Below, piece after piece: positions 3,501-58,600 of a DNA stretch of 64,000 bases. The notes beneath the pieces are model-generated. The model searched no databases, was not told where the DNA came from, and saw only the letters and a program-made list of their open reading frames with translations. Made by a program: the position numbers and the translations under genes. How positions within the stretch are numbered: the first letter of the stretch is position 1; the number at the start of each line of letters is the position of its first letter. The stretch comes from Siphonodentalium dalli (lineage: Eukaryota; Mollusca; Scaphopoda; Gadilida; Siphonodentaliidae): the NCBI GenBank assembly GCA_032622095.1, contig CP136064.1, positions 260,317,863 to 260,381,862 on the forward strand, given 5' to 3'.

Positions 3501-6500
3501 TCTGTTTCCCCCATCAATTTCTATAAAATAGAAGAAATATTGTGTGTCATTGTATTGTTATTTAGCTTTAACCCTTTCAGTGCCAAGTCCGATTTTTGTA
3601 TCAACCCATATTTCCTTGATCATTTTTAGAGCTCTTTCCATCAATGTATCACATTATAATCAATAAATTTGAAAAATGATCAAGGAAATATGGGTTGATA
3701 CAACACAATAGTCAAAATTCACACATTCTGACACATTTTTGATCACAGAAGCCAATAATATGAGGGAAAAAAACATGTCTCGGTTGGAACAGAATCACAT
3801 CGATCGGTTTTGGTCATTTCTGTTTCAAAACCGAAACCTAGTTGTTTTCTCGGTTAACCGCCCATCATTAATTTATAATCTGCCTGGTTATTTCGCAATA
3901 GCGTTGTCAAATAAAGTATGTTGTTATGGTGCTAACCCAACCTAACTGATCATGTTCATGTAAACTTTTCTGTTTGTCAAAAATAAAAACACATTTAATT
4001 ATGTTCCTTGAATAAATCTACTTATATTACTGTATATGTTCAGAATTTGGGCTTACTTTATAGGCTGATAGACCAATAATAGATACTTGCAATTGATTGC
4101 ATGGACTGAGATCTTCCTCCAGCAGTTATAGGCGTCCATTCACCCAACACCTAGTGGAATCCCTGCTTACTCATTATTATAATCCCTCACCTCAACTATG
4201 TGGGGTGTGAACCCAGTTTCATGGTACAGGATTGAGTGACTTGTCAAAGACCATGTCAGGCCAGTTATTTAATTGAATACCTTTAGTATGAGTGACTGCA
4301 CAGCAGTTATTCCCGAAACTGATCCATAGATGACAGGAAGATTAGATCCACCTGATGGTGATGAAAACACGCAGTCATGTTGTGTTGCTAAATCATGCAG
4401 ACAGCTGTCAAGGTCATCAACTACCGCTCTCAGGGCATGGATAATCTTCTCAGATAATACCGCATTAACCGTTTCAAATACCTGCAATGAAGAAGGTAGC
4501 CTGTTTTTACAGTTACAGATATAGTGTGTCTTACATTCAAATACCTGCAATGAAGAAGGTAGCCAGTTTTTACAGTTACAGATATAGTGTGTCTTACATT
4601 CAAATACCTGCAATGAAGAAGGTAGCCTGTTTTACAGTTACAGATATAGTGTGTCTTACATTCAAATACCTGCAATGAAGAAGGTAGCTTGTTTTTACAG
4701 TTACAGATATAGTGTGTCTTACATTCAAATACCTGCAATGAAGAAGGTAGCCTGTTTTTACAGTTACAGATATAGTGTGTCTTACATTCAAATACCTGCA
4801 ATGAAGAAGGTAGCCCGTTTTTACAGTTACAGATATAGTGTGTCTTACATTCAAATACCTGCAATGAAGAAGGTAGCCCGTTTTTACAGTTACAGATATA
4901 GTGTGTCTTACATTCAAATACCTGCAATAACAGAGCAATGTTCCCAAGTCTGGATATACAGTAATGCCCTAATTCATCGACTGCTTAACCCTTTACCCAA
5001 CAAACCGGCCAAATAAAGCTTCAACAGCCTAAAATATCTTGAGTCTGTCTCAATAAAACCATACAAATATGGATATCATTGGAATCGGCTCATTGACCAC
5101 ATTGTGATAGTTACAGTTATGCCCTGTGCCAATGCATTCTCTTATATATGCGAGTCGACCATAGATCGCCTCGCATATATAAGAGAATGCATTGGCCTAA
5201 AAAAAATTTATAATTTTTTCTTACATTTTTTAACAATTAATATGTGTTAAGCCAATGCATTCTCTTATATATGCGAGGCGACCTATGGTCGACTCGCATA
5301 TATAAGAGAATGCATTGGCACAGGGCCGTTCTGTTGGGTAAAGGGTTAACCACAGCAGAATTATGGGTAACTTTTCAGGATTTAGTCGGAAATATGGCTT
5401 CTTACCATTCATCGGAAAGCTCTCGGGGAGAGCTTTCCGATGAATGGCAAAAAGCCATATTTCCGACTAAATCCTGAAAGGTTACCCATAATTCTGCTGT
5501 GGTTAAGCAGTCGATTAATTAGGGCATTACTGTAGTGCGTCTGACATTCAAATACCTGCAATGAAGAAGGTAGCCCGTTTTTACAGTTCTTGGTGCAATG
5601 AATCAATTCAAGCCTTTAAATAATTGCTATTTGACTGTCTGACATTTTGTGAAGCACCAAACAGACATTGTCTGGCATTTCAAAATGAGGCCTGACATGT
5701 CTTTTTTATCACCCAAAATAATGCCAATTATGTTCCTCTTCTCAAATGTCACTTTTTTACCACAAATAATGAAAATCTTCCCACCTTGGCCACAACATCA
5801 AACATGCTGGCCAATTTCAAGCTCAATTCTAAGATTATAGAAATTGCTCTGATCCCGTAGTACTAGTAGCATGTAAGGGTATGCCTACCATTATGAAAAT
5901 ATGACCGTATGAAATCCAGGACAGTATTATGTTATAACTCGAACAAGAGGAAAAACTTGTTCCATAATTTTCCAATTCCAATATTTTGTAGACATCCAAG
6001 TTCTAATCTGAAAAACCCAGATTTTGGCAAAACAAATAATTAAAAACTACTCTCCAATAGAATAAATTTCATTTAACAGCACACTACGTATATCAATTTA
6101 TTTGGCAAAATATCACATCACCAGTGATATTTTCCTTAATAATATGTCAATATTTCAACCTGTGACGCAATCCCGCACAGCAGGTTAGCAACACCAAATT
6201 TACCCTCTGGGAACCTCAGTCTGCTTAGGCCTCAACTGTTATGGGAGACCTAGGTTCAGATTTACATTTCTCAGTTGAAGTTGGTGATGTTCACCCATTA
6301 GTCACCTTGATTGTGCATTATATCTTCTGCAAATTAGGGGATAAAAAACAGAAGGGGAAAAAATAATCAAAAATAATGTTAATTTGAGATTATAGATACT
6401 TTCCAGAAGATGAGGCCTAAGCAGAATGGGGTACCCAGAGGGTGAATTTGGTAATGCTAGCCCATTGTGTGGGATAATATCACTAAATTCACCCTCTGGG

Positions 6501-9500: not shown

Positions 9501-12500
9501 TAAATGTAGGAATAAAAGCTCAGACAAAGGTATACCCTTGTATTGAAAATGTTCTAAGTCGAAAAAGGGGGATAACTCCACACAAAAAAAGTCAAACAGA
9601 ACTCATAATCCCAGTTGAACAGGTTACCATGGTGCTAAATAGCTGTGCCAAGTTTAAACAAAAATGACTATAAATTGTAGGAATAAGAGCTCAGACAAAA
9701 TTGCATCCACGGATGAATGGACAGACGGACAAGCTGATTGTAGTATACCCCCCACAACTCATTGCAGGGGGTATAATTAGGCTTGGAATTATTGGCCTAT
9801 TTGGAATGAAGTCTATAATCCTACCAAACTACACTAATTTCAGGGCACTCTGTTTGGTTCTAAAACTATGGTAATGTGTATACATACTAGTTGCTTGTTG
9901 TGGAATCTGAAGGTGGTAAAGTGTATACATACTAGTCGCTTGTTGTGGAACCTGAGATGTCGTCTCAGCAGATGGCGCTTGAGTATTACCGCTGAACAAT
10001 ACACACAGTGATAGTGACCGTCCTTCTTGAATTTATCAGTGCACAGAAGGTGACATTTAAGAATCAACATATCTGTCAAATAAATAAATAGAAGACTATA
10101 GACAATGAAAGTGAAAATGTTTAAATAAATTTCTCACTACAAGAGTGGTGTTATTTAACCCTTCCATGACTGGAGTTCCTAAAATTTAGTGAAAACCCTG
10201 TGCCAATGCATTCTCTTATATATGCAAGTCTCAATTATTAAATGTGTCGTCTGCTTGGGTCTGTGTCAGGCTCCATACGGGGGTGTTATTTAACCCTTTC
10301 ATGACGGCAGCTGAGCTGGTGCAGCATTAATGATCCTGTGCAGTGCAATCTCTTATATATGCAAGTCTCCCATAGGGAGCCTCGCATATATAAGAGAATA
10401 CATTGTACTAACTATATTTACCTTGACCTTGTATGTAAGCCAGTTCATTCTCTTATATATGTGAGGCTCCTTATGGGAGACTCGCATATATGAGAATGCA
10501 CTGGCACAGGATCTTAATTATTGTGTGCTTATTTCAGTGAAACAAACTGATAAGTGAGAACTGAGAACCCACAGAAATAATGTGGGACTTAACCCTTTCA
10601 TGGTGGGAGCTGCGCTGGTGTAGCATTAAAGATCCTGTGCCAGTGCATTCTCTTATATATACGAGTCTCCCATTGGGAGCCTCACATATATAAGAGAATG
10701 CACAGGCTTACAAGGTCAAGGTAAATATTGTTAGGCCAATGCATTGGCACAGTGGGCTAGCATCACCAAATTCACCATCATTCTGCATAGACCTCATATT
10801 CTGGGAAGTATCTATAGTCTCAAATTAACATTGTTTTTAGTTACTTTTTACCTTCTGTTCAGTTTCTATATCCCCTAATTTGCAGAAGATAAATGCATAA
10901 TCAAGGTGACTAATGGGTGAACATCGCCAACTTCAACGGGGGAACTTTAATCTGATCGTAGTTCTCCCATAGCAGTTGAGGCCTAAGCACAATGAGGTTC
11001 CCAGAGGGTGAATTTGGTGATGCTAGCGCACTGTGCGGGATAGCGTCAATAAATTCACCCTCTGGGGACCTCATTCTGCAGATAACAGACACACTATTTG
11101 CACCATTGTTCTTACCTCCATAGAATACTAAACGCTTGATATGAACACTTTGAATGTGATCCTGTACTTTGGCTGGTCTCTTACACGGCTTGAAATGTTC
11201 GATTGAGCAGAATGGACAGTGGATCTTACGACAGCCACACGCCTCGTCTTCACACCAATCCAGTATGATGTCTTCATCTTTCTTGAGGAATGTTGAGTGT
11301 GACCGCTGCTCAGGTGTCTGTAAGGAATCATATAAATCATATAAGTCATTACAATGAAAAATGTTTAAGGGCCCATTTAATTTTCAAGTCACCAAATATT
11401 TTTTATATATGGTTTTAATAACAATCTATGCCATAAAATATGATTAAAATACTATAATTCATTACTATTTGAAATATCTGTGTCTCAGAAGGTGCCCAAT
11501 GAGTAATAACTGAAATCAAATAACATTTCCCCCATTGTGGCTCCAAGAATGTACCAGAATTCAATGGAAGGGGAATAACTCTCTGTATCTAAATATATAG
11601 CGTTATCCCCCTTCCATTGAAAATAATAGACTGTGCAGAAACTTGAGCACAGAACATACGTCAGTATCTCAACAAACACAACATGTTCACACTTTATTAC
11701 ATCGAATAAGTTGAAAATACAATGTTTTGGAGAGCTCTTCCTCTTTCAAATGGTATATAATATGGCATATATTTTAAATGATATGATCTGGGGGTTCGAA
11801 TATTAAGTGGGCCTTAAAAGGTACCCAATCTGATTCGATGGTCCCCATATAATCAGATCCCACAACAACATTTTTAGAAATGCCGCTTCAGTTATCAGAA
11901 TCTATTAACTGCCAAAAATAATGCTAACCACTGTCAACTATAGTATAAAATTCCCCGAAACGTGTTATTTATCAACATGTTGTTCGACGAAATTTGGCCT
12001 TATTACCAACAGAAAGCCGCTTGATTTTAGAGTTATCCATCTTTTTCCGCAATTTGGTCCGAGACCGTCGACTGTTTACTGGGCCACTAATAATTCTCGA
12101 TGGTGAAAAATAATAGATTTCAAAAATCGATATCTAATAACTCTGAGCTTAGATATGCGGGTTCCTCGACTCAAATCAAATATTGTTTACCCCAGAATCC
12201 AAATAAATAGTAATTGAGGGGCGCTTAATCGGATTATGCATCTTTAACTCTATTTCAAGATTAAATTACTTTACTTTAGTGCTGTGACATATAAAAACAC
12301 GGTGGTAATTCTAAAATCACCCCGGGGTATACCCTATCATTGATTACTGATTATTAATAATCACACCGGGGTATACCTTATCATTGATTACTGATTATTA
12401 ATAATCACACCGGGGTATACCTTATCATTGATTACTGATTATTAATAATCACACCGGGGTATACCTTATCATTGATTACTGATTATTAATAATCACACCG

Positions 12501-29334: not shown

Positions 29335-29950
29335 ACAAGCATGCAAATAGTGTGTCTGTCATTTGCAGAATGAGGTCCCCAGAGGGTGAATTTAGTGACG
29401 CTATCCCGCAGTGGGCTAGTATCACCAAATTCACCCTCTGGGGACCTGATTTTGCATTGGTCATAGTAAAAGCAGATCTGGTTGGATAAGACACAAAACA
29501 AAATAATTTTCATACTAGTAGGTGCAGATTAAATTTAGGTCCAAGCCTTGAAATAGGGTGTCTGTCATTTGCAGAATGAGGTCCCCAGAGGGTGAATTTA
29601 GTGATGCTACCCCGCATAGTGGGCTAGCATCACCAAATTCATCCTCTGGGGACCTCATTCTGCTTACACCTCAGCAGAATGAGGTTCCCAGAGGGTGAAT
29701 TTGGTGATGCTAGCCCGCTATGTTGGGTAGCATCACTAAATTCACCCTCTGGGGACCTCATTCTGCAAATGACAGACACCCTATTTCAAGGCTTGTACAT
29801 AAGTAAGAACTGTACAAGCCTGCAAATAGTGTGTCTGTCATTGCAGAATGAGGTCCCCACAGGGTGAATATAATGACGCTACCCTGCATGGCGGGCTAGT
29901 ATCACCAAATTCACCCTCTGGGGACCTCATTCTGCATTGGTCATAGTAAA
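29335..29950. mobile_element. Cluster of three palindromic MITE copies and a local duplication
   Basis: Copies at about 29335-29480, 29545-29800 (complete double form, ends CCAAGCCTTGAAATAGGGTG and complement) and 29815-29950. The flanking AAGTAAGAACTGTACAAGC and GGTCATAGTAAAAGCAGATC are also duplicated: 29320-29480 is repeated at 29805-29960, and 29500-29560 at 29980-30050. So a segment of about 480 bp was tandemly duplicated after insertion. Confidence 0.85.
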
Positions 29951-40685: not shown

Positions 40686-43600
40686 CTGTAATATGATTTA
40701 AACATATGTTATTATCCCTCAATAAAATGATAAAAATTGTTAAAGAATGTAAGAAAAATTATAAAAATGATAAATATTATTAAAGAATGTAAGAAAAAAA
40801 TTATAAAATTGTTAAAGAATATAAGAAAAATATCAGTAAATTTTTTTTTGGTACGCACTATTCCATGCCTGATAACGGCAAAAATTCCATTGTTAAGTTT
40901 GTTACCATAGCAAATAAGAACTATATTGATATACAGTATTCAACGATGCCGTAAACACAATTCTGAACTGTCCTCATTGTTATTACCATAATGCAACATC
41001 CGCTGTTTGTTACACCGGTGTAAACTTTTCCATAAACTGGCAGATACCCACTGGTATTCTGCAAGCCTTGAAATAGTGTGTTTGTCATTTGCAGAATGAG
41101 GTCCCCAGAGGGTGAATTTAGTTATGCTACCCCGCATAGCGGGCTAGCATCACTAAATTCACCCTCTGGGGACCTCATTCTGCTTACACCTCAGCAGAAT
41201 GAGGTTCCCAGAGGGTGAATTTAGTGATGCTAGCCTGCTATGCGGGGTAGCATCACTAAATTCACCCTCTGGGGACCTCATTCTGCAAATGACAGACACC
41301 CTATTTCAAGGCTTGCAGGCAGACGAAAAGCTAATACAAGTGATGAAGCATGAAATGTTCAAAAAATAAGTTCAATAAACAACCTTTGTTGCAGGATTTA
41401 GTCATGCAAAGAATAAAATCCAAGATGGCTGATGGTGGCCATGTTTTTTGGCCGAATGACTCCAAAATGACTTGTGCCCATCTGTATGTCAATATTAACA
41501 TAAATGACAAATTTCATGATGATCAGACAAACAGTATGGCCTGTAGTCCATGCTTATGGATTGAATTTTGAAATCCATGATGGCCGCTGGCAAACAAACA
41601 AACACTCCGCCTGCAGTCTGTGCTAATGGATTGAATTTTGAAATACAAGATGGCTGCTGGTGGCCATGTTTTTTTGCCGAATGACCCCAAAATGACTCGT
41701 TCCCATCTAGATATCAATGTCAAATTTCATAATGATCCGACCAAAGGTACGACGTGTAGCCTGTGCCAAAAGATTTAGTCATGCAAAGAGTAAAATCCAA
41801 CATGGCTGCTGGTGGCCATGTTCTTTAGCCGAACGACCCCAAAATGACTCGTTCCCATCTACATGTCAATATTAACTTACACGACAAATTTCATGATGAT
41901 CAGACGAACACTCCGGTCTGTAGCCCGTGCTAGTGGATTGAATTTTGAAATCCAAGATGGCCACTGGCGGCCATGTTTTTTTGCCAAATGACCCCAAAAT
42001 TACTCGTTCCCATCTACATGTCAATGTCAATGCCCATAACAAATTTCATAATGATCCGACCAAATGTACAACCTGTAGCCCGTGCTAAAGGAAATTGTTG
42101 ACTAATCATGCACACACACGCGCACTCACACACGCGCACACGGACGACGGATACCAAGCCATGGCATTAGCTCAAACTTTACAAAGTAAAGTTGAGCTAA
42201 AAAAGGATTTGGTTTTCAGGCCCCGCCGCATTGAAAAAAAATAGCCATTGAGGTTATTTATTATATTCTTGCAGCCCTTGAAATTAGGAAATATTTCCCA
42301 CAGCAAATTTAATACTGTGGCATTATAGGTTCCACATGTTGCCACAGCATTTACCATAGCATTGCTTATTGCCGTAGCCAATTTCAAGGACTGCTTGTTA
42401 CTGAAAAATCTCCCAATTTAAACCCTTGGAATATAAATTGAATACAGAAAAACACGAAACAATGTAAACATAATTGGGTTCACCAACAAACAGGCTCTTT
42501 GAAATAAACGGATATTCAAGACAAAAATATAATAGGAGAAATCTTTGCCATACGATATCAGATGGGTGTGTTATAAACACAAATCCATACAAACATATTA
42601 CTGTGACTAACTGGACTAATAAACACAAAGCCATACAAACATATTACTGTCACTAACTGGACTAATAAACACAAAGCCATACAAACATATTACTGTCACT
42701 AACTGGACTAATAAATACAAAGCCATACAAACATATTACTGTCACTAACTGGACTAATAAATACAACGCACTCCTTCAAATGCCGAAGAAGATTTAATTA
42801 AAGACCAGTGTGCAAGTCAGCAAATAATGTGTCTGTCCTTTGCAGTATGAGGTCCCCAGAGAGTGAAGCAAAGCAGGCTAACATCACCAAATTCACCCTC
42901 TGGGGACCTCATTCTGTTTAGGCCTCATCTTCTGGGAAAGTATCTATAGTCTCAAGTTAACATTGTTTTTAGTTTATTTTTCCCTTCTGGGATGTTTCTA
43001 TATCCCCTAATTTGCAGAAGATAAATTGCATAATCAAGTTGACTAACGGGTGAACATCACCAACTTCAACTGGGGAAATTCAATCTGATTCTGGTCTCCC
43101 ATAGCAGTTGAGGTTGAGGCCTAAGCTGCAGATGATACTTGACTGCTCCAAGCTCAACATACCATCTCAACTGGCATGCCGTATCGAGGTCGCTTCCAGG
43201 TCTCTGCTATAAACTGCATCAACACAGACTCTACCTAATGACTACATCCACTAAGAAGAAGCAGACTTTCCTAAACTCAGAATAGGAACTAAGCCCAGCC
43301 ACTTCCGATGTTTTGTTTATATTCACCATATCATGAATCTCTTCAATTAAGTATGCAGGATGTATATAAGCGGAGCTGACTATTCCCACAGTTAGGCAGA
43401 GTAGGTTCTCCTACCAAAGAAGGTATCTACCAGCTAGGTAAAGGTACCCAGAGGGTGAATTTGATGATCCCAGCCAAACATAAGGATAGCGTCACTAAAT
43501 TCACCCTCTGGGGACCTCATTTTGCAAAGACAGACACACTATTAGCAGGCTTGACAGTGTGTTATCCTCATGCCATCACACTTAAAGTGATGTGAAACAC

Positions 43601-46600: not shown

Positions 46601-49600
46601 GGACCCTTCATACCAAATATGAACCCATTCGGCCTTATGGCACTTGAGAAGAAGTTGTTCTAAGAATTACTATGGAGGGAAAGAGTTATGGCCCTGGTTT
46701 CGCAACTATTAGACCCAGTGAACTCATTTGAACAAATCTGAATGTGAGTCACCTAGGGAACATCCACACCAAATATGAACCGATTCGGTCCTAAGGATTT
46801 AAATAAGATGTTCAAAGAATTGTTGACGGACGGACGGATGGACGGTACGATGGAAGGATGGACGGACGACGAATGAGGAGTGATGACTAAAGCCAACATT
46901 TCCAGATAAACAAAGATGAATAACTCTAGAACGGAACACTGTCAAGACAAAAAGCCAACATTTACAGATAAACAAAGATGAATAACTCTAGAACGGAAAA
47001 CCAGAACAAAACAATTGAAAGCTCCATGACATGTCCTCTCAGTAGTGACAATCTATTCCAAATTTCATTGAAATCCGAGCACTACTGTTATAACCTGAAC
47101 AGACATCAGTTGGATGAACAAACAGAGAGACTGATGAAAAACAGTATATTCCCATCTTTATTTGTTTAAAAGGGGGGTTTAACAATATATAACTCTGAGT
47201 TAATGAAGTACAAACATTCACAGAATAAAACTTAGCCACTTGATTATTAATGCTTGTTAGTAGTGAATATGGGCACTGGTTTTGTGAACTGGGTAGCATG
47301 AATAGGCAGTTTCAGTTGCTTTGACTAAAATCACTGTTATAAAAGGTCGCTGGCCAAAATATCCCCTTGTTAGCAGACGTCAGGTTAAGTCCAACCCCTC
47401 CGAAGTACAGTTTACTTACTGGATCGAGGAGGTAGACTTTATTAGCAGACGTCAGATTAATACCCACCCCTCCAGAGTACAGTTTACTTACTGGATCGAG
47501 GAGGTAGACTTTATTAGCAGACGTCAGATTAATTCCCACCCCTCCAGAGTACAGTTTACTTACTGTATCGAGGAGGTAGACTTTATTAGCAGACGTCAAA
47601 TTAATTCCCACCCCTCCAGAGTACACAGTTTACTTACTGGATCGAGGAGGTAGACTTTATTAGCAGACGTCAGATTAATTCCCACCCCTCCAGCTTTGAG
47701 TGACAGCAGCATGATCGTTGGTGATCCTGGAGTCAGGTCGGAGAATTCATCGACCGACTTCACCCTCTTTACGGCGGTCATTGTTCCATCGAGTCGACTG
47801 AAGCTGAACCCATTTGACCTGATATGCATGAAAAATATTATTAACCCTTTACCCAACAAACCGGCCAAATAAAGCTTCAACAGCCTAAACTATCTTCGGT
47901 CTGTCTCAATAGAACCATACAAATATGGATATCATTGGAACCGGCTCCTTGACCACATTGTGATAGTTACAGTTATGCCCTGTGCCAATGCATTCTCTTA
48001 TATATGCGAGTCGACCATTGGTCGCCTCGCATATATAAGAGAATGCATTGGCCTAAAAAAAATCTTTTTTTAACACTTTTTACCAATTTTTCTTACATTC
48101 TTTAACAATTTTATAATTTTTAATGTGTTAAGCCAATGCATTCTCTTATATATGCGAGGCGACCTATGGTCGACTCGCATATATAAGAGAATGCATTGGC
48201 ACAGGGCCCTTCTGTTGGGTAAAGGGTTAATTAGATATCACATTGTTTTCCTTGAGCGACCTCTTATCGACCTCGGCTGATATCACGCCAAACTTGGCTG
48301 ATAACACATTAAACTCGCGAATAAGCCACCAAACTTGGCTGATATCAGTTGTGATGTCACCAGTCGACATGTAGTGTTTACGTCTAATGTAACAGCCATT
48401 CAAGGGACATAGCCACAATGATAGTCCAATATAATGAGAATTTCTAAATTGATTTGAGGTAATGGAGGTGACAGTTCCGTGCTATTTCAAACTGTTTACT
48501 CCCTAATTTCAATGTAAATTGTGAAAGTATTTAAGTATATTTAGTGATTTTTATTACAATCTACATGCTATCCATTCAATCTTAAGTTTACACCTATGAA
48601 CTGATATCGGAATGGATAGCAATGGTATTGCATATATGTGACCCGCCATATCAAATCCAGTCGTAAGTCGGGATTTTTTTACCCTGTGCCAATGCATTCT
48701 CTTATATATGCGACCATAGGTCGCCTCGCATATATAAGAGAATGCATTGGCCTAACAATTTTTTACAATTTTAATAATTTTTTCTTGTATTCTTTAACAA
48801 TTTTATAATTTCACCCACACAGAGCCCCAGACAAACATGAGCAGACAACACTCTTCTATATGCTTCTATATATGTGTGGGGCTCCCTGCAGGGTAATGGA
48901 TGTTTTTTATTTTATGTCCTAAAAATTGTAAGAAACATTTATTTAAAAAAAATGATAAAAAATTGTTGGGCCAATGCATTCTCTTATATATGCGAGGCGA
49001 CCTATGGTCGACTCGCATATATAAGAGAATGCATTGGCACAGGGTAAAAAAATCCCGACTTCCGACTGGATTTGATATAGTGGGTCATATATTATATCTA
49101 ATTAATAACGAGGTTATAATTTGGTTAGTTGGATATCCACTGAGGTGTGAACACACTCACCTCAAAGGGACTTGGACGAGGTCGAGCAATGATGTGAATT
49201 GTGATACAACGATGGACTTTGTGGATGTATCCTCCAGCCTGTTTCTCAACAGTGCATTCATCAGAGCATCAATCTGTAATGTGTTCATGGAATAATATTG
49301 TGTAAGCAGATTTGTGCAGAGCAATAAATGCCATTCATGAAATTGATTACTGAAGTAAGAGAAAAAAACTTGCAACTACTCAGATTTTCAGACTGAATCT
49401 GTCAAAAAAGAATTTCAAATATCATGCTAATGGCGTTAAAATCGCTAAAACTAGGGGCCATAACTCAGATATAAAAATGTGACAAACATGGATTTCGAAC
49501 TTGATTGAGATATTTTTTAGAGGTGCCACGATTATTGATTTTGATAATCTATAATCGGTCGTCAATAATCGACTATAATTGATTAATCGTACCTATAATA

Positions 49601-52600
49601 ACATCAGTGGAAGTATTCCATAATATGGCCTATTGGCTGGGTGCTGGTTAACTGCACTATCGCTGGTTGTTTGAGGCATCGGCTGATGTAATTTTTACGT
49701 TAATAAAGTGCATGATAAACCACTGTTAATGACCAATGGACACAATGAATTCAATACCAGCACAGTTCTCGGTGACAGGGTCCGCGCTGGACTGAAAATT
49801 ACTTTTGCCAAATGAAAATAATTTTTTGCCCAATTCGTTTAGAAGTTGCCAAATGCTATCTCCGATAGAATTAATTTATGCAACACAGTCTTATATTTTG
49901 GTAATCGTTATTTGAACGACTTACAATATCAATAGGAAAGCAGTTAAAGGTACTCAATCCGATCAGACACTCCTAAATTACTGTTTCTTTGGATTCGGGG
50001 GTAAAAAATATTTGATTCGAGTCGAGGAACCAACCCATCAAAGCACAGAGTGATTAGATATCGATGTTTGAAATGTGCTGTTTCTATTGTTTGTGGCCCA
50101 ATCTTTTCGAGGACCGCGTGCTAAAAACGGACAAATTGCGGTTGTAAGATGGATAACTCTAAAATCAAGTGGTTATTATTATCAATGTTGATAACTTTTC
50201 CAAAACACCATTAATATACAACTATAGTGTAATCCTGAAATTATTGGTTAATTGATTGACCAATTATTTTCAACTATCTTGAGAAATTAATAACAGACTT
50301 GCCAACACTTTTGCCAAATGACCATATTTTTGGCCAAATGTGAATTATTTTTGCCAATGGCAAATTTGGTAAGTAGCAGCGCGAACCCTGCTCGGCGAGT
50401 TTATGGTTATAATATTTGTAAGTTCATTAGAACGAATGTAACGATTAATTTCAGTGTTAGATCCAAACAATATAAAAGTAGGAATGCAAACAATATAAAA
50501 GTAGGAATGCACAATGGATGGCTGGTGGTTCCTAAAACAAGGAAACTGTAAGTTTCATCAAACTTCCAGAGCGTGGATAACAAACACAAAGGTGTGCCCC
50601 CACCCGCAAATTGCAGGACTCAGAACAAGTTAAGTATTTGATAATATCAAGTTTCATTCAGCATTCGCCGCATGAAACGTGTTAGCTTGTACTAGTAACA
50701 TATAAGTATACTTATGCAAACAAAGTATACGTATACTCGCAAGTGACATCGCGGAGAACATCACTGACTAAAATGCCGTAGGTTCCCTGGTTTCCAGAGA
50801 ATGTTAATCAACTCCCCATTGGTCCAATCAGATTCAAGGGTGAGGGCATTCAGTTCATTGAACACAGTGACAGTCGGCACATTTCAAGTATTTCAAGTAT
50901 AAATATACAATGACGTCGCCATAAGTTCAAAGCTGCAGTGCCGCCAATTTGTAGAATACACAACGACCCGAAAAGTAACCATGTCGCATCATCAAATGAA
51001 CTGCCTACTGTTTGCAACATAAGTTAGTACTACTCATGTTTTCAGAATCTCATTGATACGCGATCAAAGGTTGTTAACCCTTCGGTTGTAGATTAAACAG
51101 TGTAAAACAAACACGGTATTCAATAATACCCGGCATTTTCCGACAACGAAATAAATAATGCAGATTAATCGACGATGGAAATGGTAATCGATTATCGGCT
51201 TTATCAACGGTTCATCGATTATACGATTAATCGTGGCACCCCTAATATTTTTGTGGAAGATCAATATACCAAATGTGAATGGAATCGGTTGATGTTTGTT
51301 CAAGTTATCACAAGAAAAGTCTAAACCCTTTCATGACTGGAGCTTTCTGAAATTTTGTGAAAGCCCTGTGCCAATGCATTCTCTTTTATATGGGGGTCTC
51401 GCATATATAGAGAATACATTGGCCTATTACCTCAACATTGTAAGCAAGTGCATTCTCTTATATATGCAAGGCTCCCTATGGGAGACTCGCATATGTAAGA
51501 GAATGCACTGGCATAGTATCATTAATGCTGCACCAGTGCAGCTCCCATTATGAAAGGGTTAACATTGCTGAAAATAGACAAACTAAGGGCCATAATTCAG
51601 GTAAAAAAATCAAGACAAACCTGGTTATCAAAATCCATAAATAAACGACTAAGTTAGGAAGGATTAGCACCGCCCACCCCAACCATCCCTCATCAAATTG
51701 TCAGTCATGTTTTCTTGTTTAAATTGATGTGAAACATTCAGGTAGGGTGATCAAATAAAAATGGGAGATTAATCTTGCTCAAAGTAGTTATTTTAACAAA
51801 TATTATATCCAAATTGACAATACACACCACCATTATTATATATTAATTAAATGCAGTGACTCTCGATGGTGAAATCGTTTTCGTTAGCTTATCGCCGATA
51901 GTTGCATCCCGAATCGAGAAGTAAATATTTCAAATTGAGCGTAGTTCAGACGATGTTTTCTATGGAGTGGAACTGTTGATTTGCTTGAGATTTTCGCCGA
52001 TGTTACATTCCACCAGTTGGCACTGCGCCTGAATACTAAATTATCAGTTCCACGTACCTGAGCAAGTACATATGTATTTAAAACTTGACGGAAAATAAAG
52101 CCTGAGGAACAAATAATTAATTTTGGATGGATTTATGTATTAATTTTATAAATGACCTTTGAACTTGATTGCCAGGAGGCATCATCGACCTTGAAAGTTG
52201 GATTCTCTTTAGCATCATCCTTGGCCTGAGGAGGTGGAGGAACTTCTAATAATTTACTGGTATCTATTTCTCCTCGACACAGCGGGCATCTGGGTTGAGG
52301 CTGAAAGATGGTTTGAAATATTATTCTAAAACTTGCTGCAGGTTTTTTCCCAGTATCTCCAAATCATACATGTATTCCTTCATGTTTTATTTTCTGAGCA
52401 CATACAGTAATGCCCTAATTAATCGACTTCTTAACCACAGCAGAATTTTGGGTAACTTTTCAGGATTTAGTCGGAAATATGGCTTGTTGCCATTCATCGG
52501 AAAGCTCTCCCCGAGAGCTTTCGGATGAATGGCAACAAGCCATATTTCCGACTAAATCCTGAAAAGTTACCCATAATTCTGCTGTGGTTAAGAAGTCGAT

Positions 52601-55600
52601 TAATTAGGGCATTACTGTAAACCATTATATCCTGAAGTTCATGAGTAGCACTAGGGAGTGACTTCATCGACTTACTATTGGCTCCTGCGAATCCTGCATT
52701 TTTCATCAAATCTAACTTTGAATTGAAAATATGGATAATATAAAGACATGATGCACATTTGTCTGACTTAGATTTGTTACACATTCTGCATGATAAATCT
52801 CGCCTTCTCATTTCCGTTGACACTTTCTACACACATTCTACAGAAAACGTGAGCACAGTGCGTTATCACGGCATTCTTTAATGAATTGAGACATACTGCA
52901 CATTCCTCGTCAGAGTCTACTAAGGTTCGTTACACATTCTGCATGATAAATCTCACCATCTCATTTCTGATGACGCATTCTATACACATTCTACAGAAAA
53001 CGTGAGCACAGTGCGTTATCACGGCATTCTTTAATGAATCGAGACATACTGCACATTCCTCGTCAGAGTCTACTAAGGTTCGTTACACATTCTGCATGAT
53101 AAATCTCACCTTCTCGTTTCTGATGACACTTTCTATACACATTCTACAGAAAACGTGAGCACAGTGCGTTATGACGGCATTCTTTAATGAATCGAGACAT
53201 ACTGCACACTCCTCATCAGAGTCTGACTAAGGTTCGTTACACATTCTACATGATAATTCTCACCTTCTCGTTTCTGATGACGCTTTCTATACACATTCTA
53301 CAGAAAACATGAGCACAGTGCGTTATGACGGCATTCTTTAATGAATCGAGACATACTGCACACTCCTCGTCAGAGTCTGACTAAGGTTCGTTACACATTC
53401 TACATGATAATTCTCACCTTCTCGTTTCTGATGACGCTTTCTATACACATTCTACAGAAAACGTGAGCACAGTGTGTTATCACAGCATTCTTTAATGAAT
53501 CGAGACATACTGCACACTCCTCATCAGAGTCTGACTAAGGTTCGTTACACATTCTGCATGATATATCTCACCTTCTCGTTTCTGATGACACTTTCTATAC
53601 ACATTCTGCAGAAAACGTGAGCACAGTGTGTTATCACAGCATTCTTTAATGAATCGAGACATACTGCACACTCCTCATCAGAGTCTGACTAAGGTTTGTT
53701 ACACATTCTGCATGATATATCTCACCTTCTCGTTTCTGATGACACTTTCTATACACATTCTACAGAAAACGTGAGCACAGTGCGTTATCACAGCATTCTT
53801 TAATGAATCGAGACATACTGCACACTCCTCGTCAGAGTCTGACTAAGGTTCGTTACACATTCTACATGATAATTCTCACCTTCTCGTTTCTGATGACGCT
53901 TTCTATACACATTCTACAGAAAACATGAGCACAGTGCGTTATCACGGCATTCTTTAATGAATCGAGACATACTGCACACTCCTCGTCAGAGTCTGACTAA
54001 GGTTCGTTACACATTCTACATGATATATCTCACCTTCTCGTTTCTGATGACACTTTCTATACACATTCTACAGAAAACGTGAGCACAGTGCGTTATGACG
54101 GCATTCTTTAATGAATCGAGACATACTGCACACTCCTCATCAGAGTCTGACTAAGGTTCGTTACACATTCTACATGATAATTCTCACCTTCTCGTTTCTG
54201 ATGACGCTTTCTATACACATTCTACAGAAAACATGAGCACAGTGCGTTATCACGGCATTCTTTAATGAATCGAGACATACTGCACACTCCTCGTCAGAGT
54301 CTGACTAAGGTTCGTTACACATTCTACATGATAATTCTCACCTTCTCGTTTCTGATGACGCTTTCTATACACATTCTACAGAAAACGTGAGCACAGTGTG
54401 TTATCACAGCATTCTTTAATGAATCGAGACATACTGCACACTCATCAGATTCTGAATAAGGTTCGTTACACATTCTACAGAAAACATGAGCACAGTGAGT
54501 TATCACGGCATTCTTTAATGAATCAAGACATACTGCACACTCCTCATCTGAGCCTGACTAAGGTTCGTTACACATTCTGCATGATAAATCTCACCTTCTC
54601 GTTTCTGATAACACTTTCTATACACATTCTGCAGAAAACATGAGCACAGTGTGTTATCACAGCATTCTTTAATGAATCGAGACATACTGCACACTCCTCA
54701 TCAGAGTCTGACTAAGGTTCGTTACACATTCTACATGATAATTCTCACCTTCTCGTTTCTGATGACACTTTCTATACACATTCTGCAGAAAACATGAGCA
54801 CAGTGTGTTATCACAGCATTCTTTAATGAATCGAGACATACTGCACACTCCTCATCTGAGCCTGACTGTAGCACAGTGAGGAGAGTTTCTACCAGCTTCT
54901 TCCTCAAATCCTCATTGATGTTCACGCCACTCTTCGCAACGGTTTCTGAAAATGAAAATGAGATGTGACATCCAGTTTCATAAGAACACCCCTACTCGGA
55001 CTAAGGCAATTAAAATATCTGTGTTCTCAGGCAATTAGATGAGGATGGGAAGCATTTCATTTTAATTTTTTTCTCAAAATCTGGAAAACACACTCAAGAA
55101 ACCAAATTTACTTTCGCTGTTCAAACCAATATTTCTAACAGAAAATATTGAAAAAAATGTTTGCCGAGGCTTTTTAAAAGAAAATTCGGGAGGTGCCCAA
55201 GAATAGATTTTTTAAATTATTGAGCGTAATTGAATAATGGACATATTAAATTCTACTTTATTGCCGGGCAAAGCAGACTAATCTTAAAATACATTATAAT
55301 AATGCATTTATATAGCGCATTCCACAGTAAATTAGTTTCAATGCGTTTTACATTTTATTTATTTATTATTGCCCCAGTTACAGGGCATTGATTACCAATC
55401 CTTGCTTAGGAGGAAGGAGCTAATGAGTGCATCAGGATTACCATACTGACATAACCCAACGACTTCCGACCGGATACTCGGTAAACAGGTGAGTCCCCAC
55501 GACAATTGTAGTATGAGATCGCTAGCCAGAGGGAATTAATGTGGCATTTGACGTTCAATGGCAGAGAGCGGTATTCGAATGCACGACATTTAACCCCATG

Positions 55601-58600
55601 ATGTTACACAAGTCAAAAACGCTAACCACTGGAACACAGTGCCACTATGAGCAAAGGCAAATTTTGAACATTGATTTTGTGAGAATTAGGGTTGAAAAGT
55701 TAGTCAACCAGTCTACACCGAGTCGATTATTAACGAAGTCAACCAAGCCTTGAAATAGGGTGTCTGTCATTTGCAGAATGAGGTCCCCAGAGGGTGAATT
55801 TAGTGATGCTACCCCGCATAGTGGGCTAGCATCACCAAATTCACCCTCTGGGGACCTCATTCTGCTTACACCTCATGTAATATAAACATGACCTGTCCCT
55901 TCTAAAATATAGAACATGTAACATATTACATCAAATTAAATTGTATATTTTTCCAAGGTAAATTTTGGGGAATAGCTTAACGTTTCCATCACTGGAATTT
56001 CCTGAAATTTTGCGATAACCCTGTGCCGATGCATTCTCTTATATATGTGAGTCCATCTTAGGGAGCCTTGCATATATAAGAGAATACATTGGTCTAACAA
56101 TATTTACCTTGACCTTGAATGCCAGTGCATTGTCTTATAAGCGTGGCTCCCTATGGGAGACTTGCACATATAAGAGAATACACTGGCACATGGTCTTTAA
56201 TGCTGCACCAGCACAGCTCCTGTCATGAAAGGGTTAATTTCTTAAGTGAACTGATCGCATAAATGAAACTTATTTATAAATAAATGAACCGAAAATTGTG
56301 AGCTCACCAACTGTTTCTTTGGCAATAGCTGCAGCCTTGGCAACCAGCAGTGGATGACAGCACAGCTGTCTTAACCTCATCATGATCGCCAAAACCTGAC
56401 CGTAGTGGTGAAGCAAAGTACCTTCCTGGAAATATCTGCAAATATATACAAATGTATTACAAGACCGCCTCACGTTACACAAATTTCTGTCACTGAAATA
56501 TCTGCAAATATAATACAAGCTATCCTCACAGAACAAGAAGTTGCACCTTGGATGCTGGAATACCTCCATGTTGCCAAATTAAAACATGGCATGATGGAAA
56601 CCAAAATTAAACAAGAGATTGCACCACGGGTGCTGGGATACCCCCATGGTGAAAATTGAAATATGGACAGGTCAGAAACCAAATTGTGAAGAAAAAATGT
56701 GATGAACAAACGAATTACTTGACAATGCTATCGAAAGACGGACAGAAATCCAACATTTTCAGATAAAGAAAGAGGGGTAACTCTTTAACGGAAAATGTGA
56801 ACAAAGTCAGTGAACCCATTTTTGTAAGCCCTCCTGATGCCAAACCTTCATACCAAATTTCATTGAGATCCGATCAGCCATGGTTGAGATATATGAGTTG
56901 ACAAATGGACGGACGGATGGCTAGATGGACGCATGTGATCCACTATACCCCCATCTTTTGGGATAGGGGGATTAATACACAAAGAACAAGTGCCCCCGAC
57001 TGAACAATCAGAGAGGATTTTTCTTATTTTTGTGCAAATGCTTATTAAATGGCAGTTTGTAAAGTTATGTTATTCATGAGTAAACAATCCAAAATCAAGT
57101 TATCATCTGGAAACCAAAAAAAGTAGCAGAAAACCTGAATTTTCTAAGTCCAAAAAGAGGCGTAACTCTGGAAAAAATGGGCGGACGAAACCACGGCTAT
57201 GGGGAAATCTTGTCCCCCCCGGCTGGTCTATTAGCATACCAAATATCAACTGAATTGAGTTAGCGAAACCAAAGTTATGAGTTGAAACGTTCGTACGGAC
57301 AATTTTCTAAGTCCAAAAAGGGGCGTAACTCTGGAAAAAAAGGGCGGACGAAACCGCAGTTATGGGAAAATCTTGTCCCCCCCCCCCCGGCTGGTCTATT
57401 AGCATACCAAAGATCAACTGAATTGAGTTAGCGAAACCAAAGTTATGAGTTGAAACGTTCGTACGGACGGACGGACGGACAGACGGAGGGCTCCACTATA
57501 TACCCCCAAATCTCCATCGGAGATCGGGAGCATAATAACACTAGAAGAGAAAATACAAACATCATTGGGCACTCTTTTGAAAACAGTCATGATGATGAAT
57601 CTTCATACAAATTCCATTTAGATCCGATAACCCATGGCTGAGATATCTGAGCAGACGGACAAAAACAAAGAATTCAGATAAAAACAGAAGGATAACTCTA
57701 GAAATCGAGAACAATGTTGTTCCTATTTTGAAAGCAGTAGTGATGGCGAACCACGATACTAAAATTCCTTCAGATCTGATAACCGATGGCTGAAATATAT
57801 GTCAGGATATACAGACTGATGGAAAAAGTCAATACATTCTACTGCCCATTTCCTTTGAAAAGTGTGCGATACAGTGAGTAAAAATATCTGCAAGAAATAT
57901 ATGTATAACATGACAATAGAATTCTATAGATAGAACGAACATTGTAGAATTGTATTCTATGAAAATGTCAATGCATCAAGTGATGCATCCATTCATTTTT
58001 TAGAATTCTTTGAATAAGATTTGAAAAAAATAACCTCCCTCCCTCTTCCAACTAACCATATAGCATGAGAACATAGATATTTATTTTTAAAGATGGTCTA
58101 TCTCTTCCTAAACACGTTTTATAGTTTCCGGGGTATAAAATAATAGATGTGGAGCTCCGTGGTCCAGTGGTTAGCGCGTTGGACTTGTCTTCGCTGTCAA
58201 CACAGCGAGGCGAGTTCGCGGCTGGCTGGTGGTCTGTTATGAGTTTCCACACAGCAGTGGCTTGGCCGACTTGAGCGATGTGCAATTGTTGGATTGTACA
58301 CTGTTTGAATCTCGCGCCAAGTTGTGACCCTTGAGCAAGGTCGCTCGTACTGTGTCTGCTTTGCACCACCCATGCATTATAAGGGTACCTGATAATGAGC
58401 AGTGAAAGATCTTGTCAGTATGCTAGCCATATGGTATCCTCGCATACTCCCGGCTGTACCTCCCCCTGTCCCGGGGAGCAGTAGATGGTTACTGAATGTT
58501 CAGGCTCATCAGGGTAATAATTGTAAAACTTTGAGCGCTTTGGGCCTCATGGGAAAGGCGCTTTACAAATGCTATACATTATTATTATTATGTTATAAAT

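Follow-up and report, generated by a model that had tools for sequence, protein, structure and literature searches.

Minisatellite-like tandem duplications of exon-intron boundaries, called mirages, have been described in amphioxus in Adh3, TnC, the globins BflGb6 and BflGb9, and PGBD5 (PMC3087553, PMC3902484). Their units measure 10-72 bp in Adh3 and 150-160 bp in the globins, many units hold splice signals, and the centre of the arrays is homogenised while the edges are excluded (PMC3087553, PMC3902484). RT-PCR suggests that splicing is undisturbed by them (PMC3087553, PMC3902484). In human segmental-duplication genes, repeats likewise located at exon-intron boundaries, with units averaging 30 bp repeated 4 times, are found in recent paralogues and have been considered as a possible origin of new introns; since new introns and alternative transcripts can arise from them, arrays of this type need not be silent (PMC2812944). 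The literature searched, which excluded most subscription journals, yielded no exon-boundary minisatellite in a mollusc and no work joining HLTF, bivalves and tandem repeats. In another kind of array, known from Dscam and myosin heavy chain, tandem exons are used in a mutually exclusive manner and their spacing hinders splicing between neighbours.

The window, i.e., the whole 64-kb stretch of Siphonodentalium dalli DNA analysed here, carries on its minus strand an HLTF gene whose 5′ part extends beyond the window. In the translation of the window, ten GT-AG exons give one open frame of 529 residues terminated by a stop, which corresponds to the C-terminal part of the protein:

63991-63712, minus strand: HLTF exon, joins in frame, GT-AG
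61212-61077, minus strand: HLTF exon, joins in frame, GT-AG
60096-59917, minus strand: HLTF exon, joins in frame, GT-AG
56435-56308, minus strand: HLTF exon E4, preceding exon A, donor in phase 1 (splice sites, frame)
54945-54749, minus strand: HLTF exon A, helical linker and first six RING zinc ligands (splice sites, frame, RING Pfam match, HLTF matches)
52300-52157, minus strand: HLTF exon E6, last two RING ligands (CPLC), joins copy c1 (see below) in phase 0 (splice sites, frame)
49273-49161, minus strand: HLTF exon, joins in frame, GT-AG
47818-47638, minus strand: HLTF exon E8, joins in frame, GT-AG
44148-44068, minus strand: HLTF exon, joins in frame, GT-AG
40685-40536, minus strand: HLTF exon, joins in frame, GT-AG

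Judged by its predicted protein, the gene is HLTF, with a RING lying within a SNF2-type helicase: the best named matches are HLTFs with SNF2 and helicase C domains, and the RING half is found by Pfam. Among the best 120 of 6,372 matches, the closest proteins are bivalve HLTFs, with 71% identity at best; over residues 1-309, the matches listed include those of Crassostrea virginica (71%), Mercenaria (68%), Ostrea (70%) and Mytilus (70%). In a tree of 23 HLTF rows, the S. dalli gene groups with 14 rows including 12 named bivalves (support 87/87, not starred), and no placement nearer than this group was obtained in that tree.

Inside this gene lies a tandem array on the minus strand, whose unit of 154 bp consists of a 117-nt exon-like part and a 37-nt spacer. 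The repeat comprises the 3′-terminal 117 nt of exon A, the RING exon, and the first 37 nt of the following intron; in TRF it appears as two rows that overlap, one at 52761-54479 (score 3025, 11.2 copies) and one at 54467-54867. Counted from the exon's own copy, c1, there are 14 units:

54749-54865, minus strand: copy c1, the end of the real exon A (splice sites, frame)
54595-54711, minus strand: copy c2, 117-nt exon-like part (sequence comparison of copies)
54342-54557, minus strand: copies c3 and c4 fused in frame, 72 codons with no stop (sequence comparison of copies)
53110-54304, minus strand: regular copies c5-c12 with the 154-bp period (sequence comparison of copies)
54188-54304, 54034-54150, 53880-53996 and 53726-53842, minus strand: exon-like parts of c5-c8
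53572-53688, 53418-53534, 53264-53380 and 53110-53226, minus strand: exon-like parts of c9-c12
52804-53072, minus strand: edge copies c13 and c14, each with a 1-nt deletion; the donor of c14 is GC
52761-52771, minus strand: intron flank CTAAGTCAGAC, downstream of c14 (read from sequence)

In the gene model c1 stands directly before E6 in frame, so that the whole array falls within a single intron of 2,448 nt. A first-pass annotation of this DNA had reported a repeat of the six-ligand RING segment in HLTF with a period of 154 bp, and TRF and the comparison of copies bear this out, as they do the 117-nt part, the donor GTGAGA, the acceptor-like CCTTAG, and the start of the CPLC exon at 52300. 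Its count of 13 half-exon copies agrees with the 13 units present beyond c1, but two of these are fused and two are decayed; the regular full 154-nt copies are nine (c2 and c5-c12). The two deviant outermost copies do exist, but both sit at the far end (c13 and c14) and not one at each end. In c3, 52 nt including the donor are lost, and this length equals the distance between two 13-bp direct repeats within the unit, which are present in c5 and, with one mismatch, in c2. In c4, the acceptor-like signal is changed to CCTTAT and 3 nt are deleted, while c13, frameshifted by its 1-nt deletion, has a GT donor and CCTTAG.

The 5′ edge of the units suggests how the array was founded. At the unit start, exon A reads CTACAGTCAGGC (54860-54871), which has AGTCAG in common with the intron flank CTAAGTCAGAC, and the unit junction, CTTAGTCAGAC followed by exon sequence, resembles a join of exon A and the intron flank at AGTCAG. 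The match is likely the microhomology of the founding duplication, and the acceptor-like CTTAG (junction CTTAG|TCAGAC) seems to have arisen as a side effect of the same event.

From its sequence, the array is, in its structural features, a mirage. The tandem units include the host exon-intron boundary, i.e., the end of exon A, the donor and the start of the intron, and a complete exon predicted to be functional stands beside the array, with c1 preceding E6 in frame. The likeness to the amphioxus mirages as reported extends to the splice signals inside the units, the homogenised centre and the diverged edge, and the unit size of 154 bp is close to the 157 bp given for amphioxus BflGb9 (PMC3087553, PMC3902484). 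There are differences as well. The HLTF array, in a bivalve-like gene instead of an amphioxus one, is larger, with 13 extra units against 6 and 3 in the two haplotypes of amphioxus BflGb6 (PMC3087553, PMC3902484), and its units, unlike those described from amphioxus, have gained an acceptor-like 5′ edge and so resemble whole phase-0 exons. Compared with the human boundary repeats described (PMC2812944), it is built of 154-bp units, 13 of them extra, in an apparently single-copy gene model. The near-pure synonymous variation described below is a feature of the HLTF array, and the word "synonymous" is absent from the main text of PMC3087553.

Within the nine regular copies, the exon-like parts differ at 8 sites, all of them synonymous (GAC/GAT, GCC/GCT, GTG/GTC, ACG/ACA, CAC/CAT, TGC/TGT, AGC/AGT and GTC/GTT), and a single identical peptide is encoded by all nine. 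None of them has a frameshift or a stop. By whole unit they fall into eight types, and by the exon part into seven. The near-purely synonymous variation claimed by the first-pass annotation is therefore real, with the qualification, overlooked there, that 5 of the 8 variable positions fall at CpG. When c1-c12 are compared, 10 synonymous and 2 nonsynonymous sites are counted, and without site 92, where the c3 fusion produces an artefact, the numbers are 10 and 1, the latter being a Gly/Asp change at codon 2 near the junction. From the counts of variable sites, the first 18 nt of c4 (one missense change and the 3-nt deletion) were masked, and c3 beyond the fusion point was left out, as was site 2 of c13 and c14, where the alignment of the 1-nt deletion appears as missense. 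Singletons in c1-c12, few and counted by hand, are 3 silent and 1 missense besides one 3-nt deletion. In neutral simulations, run with CpG factors of 1-200 under two transition biases and from two starting sequences, an outcome of 8 changes without any nonsynonymous one had P<0.001 in each of the 24 settings.

At the edge, c13 and c14 contribute a further 2 synonymous and 6 nonsynonymous sites, and the core (8:0) thus differs from the edge (2:6; Fisher p=0.007). Furthermore, the four-gamete test is violated by 29 of 55 site pairs, indicating that the copies are mosaics, and c4 and c10, as well as c5 and c7, are identical where compared. The centre of the array is homogenised, and c13 and c14 are excluded from the homogenisation. 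The spacers had been described as varying more freely than the exon-like parts, which did not hold: variable sites make up 4/37 of the spacer and 8/117 of the exon part (Fisher p=0.48), no significant excess, and the spacers are not significantly less variable than third positions either (p=0.35).

The observed structure and reading frame, together with the synonymous bias, the mosaicism of the copies and the decay at the far end, lead us to favour, with moderate confidence, the explanation that the array is a mirage, a minisatellite grown from an exon-intron boundary, in which c1 is spliced to E6 and the other copies keep their sequence by exchange; as exons, these copies are most likely unused. 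A first tandem duplication, probably at the 6-bp AGTCAG match, would have copied 117 nt of exon and 37 nt of intron, and later unequal exchange would have expanded the array. A duplication that crosses the 5′ splice boundary would be tolerated, since the exon, ending in c1, stays complete and the extra copies end up in the intron. In the mRNA, c1 would be joined directly to the CPLC exon, the array being removed as part of the intron. The core copies would exchange sequence with c1, for the most part across alleles of the population, and their protein sequence would be kept because c1 blocks missense variants and lets silent ones through, while the two far-end copies, outside the exchange, would decay. 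The first-pass annotation had offered, as one of two possibilities, a minisatellite exchanging with coding variants; this fits best, with the addition that the array spans an exon-intron boundary and so belongs to a known kind.

The exchange itself was simulated in several forms, scored by the numbers of synonymous (S) and nonsynonymous (N) variable sites. Refreshment of a passive array from a constrained c1 along one lineage is rejected: S of 7-9 was reached in 21 of 45 settings, always with N>0 and in none of those samples with N=0. At most one ancestral lineage of the copies of a haplotype can be in c1 at once, so that at least half of the tree of the copies is unconstrained. Seeding of the array from c1 alleles, simulated with seven independent seeds, gave P(S>=8, N=0) of 0.05-0.23 only where neutral diversity was 0.04-0.08 and seeding was as recent as any tried, against <=0.041 at a diversity of 0.02 and <=0.003 at diversities up to 0.01; population alleles could therefore have seeded the array in this simple way only if diversity was high and the seeding recent. 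As a yardstick from a single bivalve, the silent diversity given for Ostrea edulis is 0.007 (PMC3564993).

The simulations of exchange in a population were small (60-80 haplotypes). In the first set of 16 settings, P(S>=8, N=0) was <=0.0054 and P(N=0 given S>=7) was <=0.014; in the second set of 8 settings, P(S>=8, N=0) was <=0.045, and in its six interallelic settings with theta >=0.007, P(N=0 given S>=7) was 0.18-0.78. The conversion of at least 1 per copy per generation in the second set is a scaling device at an unrealistic rate, which itself lowers S. Intra-allelic exchange was rejected: samples with S>=7 occurred in 5 of 6 settings of the first set, with N=0 in none of them, and S>=7 was reached in no sample of one first-set setting and of the sole intra-allelic setting of the second. 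With frequent interallelic exchange, diversity is shared family-wide, missense variants are cleared by c1, and S is kept high relative to N. An unused array can thus give the synonymous-only pattern, but not easily. Indeed, the rarity of S>=8 with N=0 in the exchange simulations stands against the mirage reading. The striking synonymous bias is real, and neither CpG effects nor a single-lineage constrained copy explains it.

Alternatively, the copies might be used as exons. One copy would be spliced in downstream of c1, with one neighbouring copy or more passed over, and HLTF would gain a further half-RING of 39 aa; the RING would be completed by the last copy with CPLC, and weak but real use would keep the protein sequence of each copy. 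We consider this possible but rather unlikely. In its favour are the eight purely synonymous sites with the neutral P<0.001 in all 24 settings, the intact frames of c2 and c5-c12, and the c3+c4 fusion, which stays open over 72 codons with its inner acceptor lost. The donors of c2 and c4-c12 are identical to that of c1, matching 7 of 9 consensus positions where nine real donors seen match 6-8, and inclusion of a copy, in phase 0 on both sides, leaves the frame intact. The 37-nt spacers are not G-rich and are shorter than the ultra-short human introns that serve as a length yardstick, spliced at 43 (ESRP2), 49 (NDOR1) and 56 nt (HNRNPH1) (PMC4463651); being shorter than the 43-nt intron, they probably make a copy joinable only to a non-neighbour. 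A copy could thus be added after c1, and the predicted protein would gain a second half-RING.

On the other hand, the acceptors of the copies are weak, with 7 of 17 pyrimidines against 9-14 of 17 in nine real acceptors seen, and the frameshifted c13 is tolerated in spite of its GT donor and CCTTAG. The half-RING motif occurs exactly once in 119 of the best 120 of 6,372 HLTF matches and not at all in the remaining one (P0020, a partial entry), so that none of the 120 has two, with the caveat that many of these are gene models, which may omit extra half-RINGs. The amphioxus mirages are, moreover, reported with normal mRNA (PMC3087553, PMC3902484). A redundant bank of about a dozen interchangeable same-peptide half-RING exons, each under purifying selection and any of them able to complete the RING after c1, is likewise doubtful, and we would place it marginally below the use of copies in general.

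A neutral intronic minisatellite, with its synonymous bias due to chance or CpG hypermutability, is improbable. The 5 CpG sites among the 8 variable ones speak for it, but at CpG sites with one silent and one missense transition each, 5 silent changes stand against 0 missense (p=0.03), and elsewhere synonymous changes are found at 3 of about 17 sites against 0 of about 87 nonsynonymous ones (p=0.004; site numbers set by hand). CpG hypermutability as the sole cause is rejected by these counts and by the simulation, in which a CpG factor of up to 200 still gives P<0.001. It is slightly more improbable still that variants of several individuals or paralogues were chained into a false array during assembly: the regular 154-bp units, the decayed far edge and the defined junction look biological, the c3 fusion is accounted for by the 13-bp direct repeat, and a diploid source would supply two alleles, against eight types among nine units.

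The first-pass annotation had also proposed a mutually exclusive cassette, in which a copy takes the place of c1, after the manner of classical tandem exon duplications, and had noted phase 0 on both sides. The phase is true of the copies, but exon A has an acceptor in phase 1, so a copy cannot simply replace it; the phase-1 donor of E4 does not fit the TTAG acceptor of the copies, and a TCAG four bases past TTAG fits the phase, although another AG precedes it by 6 nt. The GT found within exon A at 54893 (CTG|gtagaa, phase 0) could in principle act as a donor, but it matches 5 of 9 consensus positions against 6-8 in the real donors and would remove 9 residues. Despite the likeness to Dscam and myosin heavy chain in the row of exon-like copies and in spacing that hinders neighbour-to-neighbour splicing, the cassette is the least credible of the readings and finds poor support: c1 is contiguous with 80 nt upstream in exon A and is the 3′ part of that exon instead of a separate alternative exon between common neighbours, the copies do not fit the phase of the upstream donor, the acceptors are weak, the frameshifted c13 is tolerated close to the CPLC exon, and the nine regular copies, all encoding the same peptide, bring no protein diversification.

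The array is not the only one of its kind in the gene, which speaks for the mirage reading:

47367-47637, minus strand: second exon-boundary array, after HLTF exon E8 (TRF, sequence comparison)

Its unit of 72 bp is GGVGINLTSANKVYLLDP followed by GTAAGT; the first spacer is 2 nt longer, and the last unit is diverged, with 4 synonymous and 1 nonsynonymous changes from E8 over 36 nt. This unit appears to hold more silent divergence than allelic exchange readily gives, which counts against the mirage reading. In the window as a whole, tandem arrays occupy 46 loci and 15.5% of the sequence (TRF rows merged by hand), as in a minisatellite-rich genome. Among the 18 HLTF exon boundaries, 2 lie in arrays, where 1.9 are expected, so that no special targeting is needed and boundary arrays may simply follow from the high density of minisatellites.

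Elsewhere in the window, a 63-bp x7.3 array at 4473-4928 (minus strand) has units in which CTTCTTCATTGCAG is combined with 9 nt from the start of a putative exon (4481-4272), and is a candidate 3′ splice-site mirage. At 9869-9955 (minus strand), a 45-bp x1.9 repeat ends a putative Cys/His zinc-finger exon and is followed by GTATGT, a candidate 5′ splice-site mirage. Neither of these two exons was confirmed by Pfam, which gave nothing above a curated cut-off for six pieces of putative exons in other parts of the window. Repeats of other types were also seen. The intron of the HLTF array contains a long inverted repeat at about 52407-52620 (longest exact stretch found, 50 bp), which looks like a small inverted-repeat element and which the sequence near 4960 resembles by eye. 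A dispersed palindromic family, GCAGAATGAGGTCCCCAGAGGGTGAATTTAGTGATGCTACCCCGC, has several copies in the window, at 29571-29766, 41091-41286 and about 55780-55870.

Exon-boundary minisatellites of such size were named from amphioxus, and one 64-kb window of S. dalli holds two in HLTF and two candidates. Such arrays have been proposed as a way in which new introns and exons arise. The HLTF array is a warning that a dN/dS below 1 among intronic exon copies does not alone prove use. If unused copies keep their protein sequence only by interallelic exchange with c1, c1 must carry the same silent polymorphisms in the population; otherwise, the copies would be used. The protein-preserving variation of the HLTF array is unusual, and it offers the basis for a clean test between used and unused copies.
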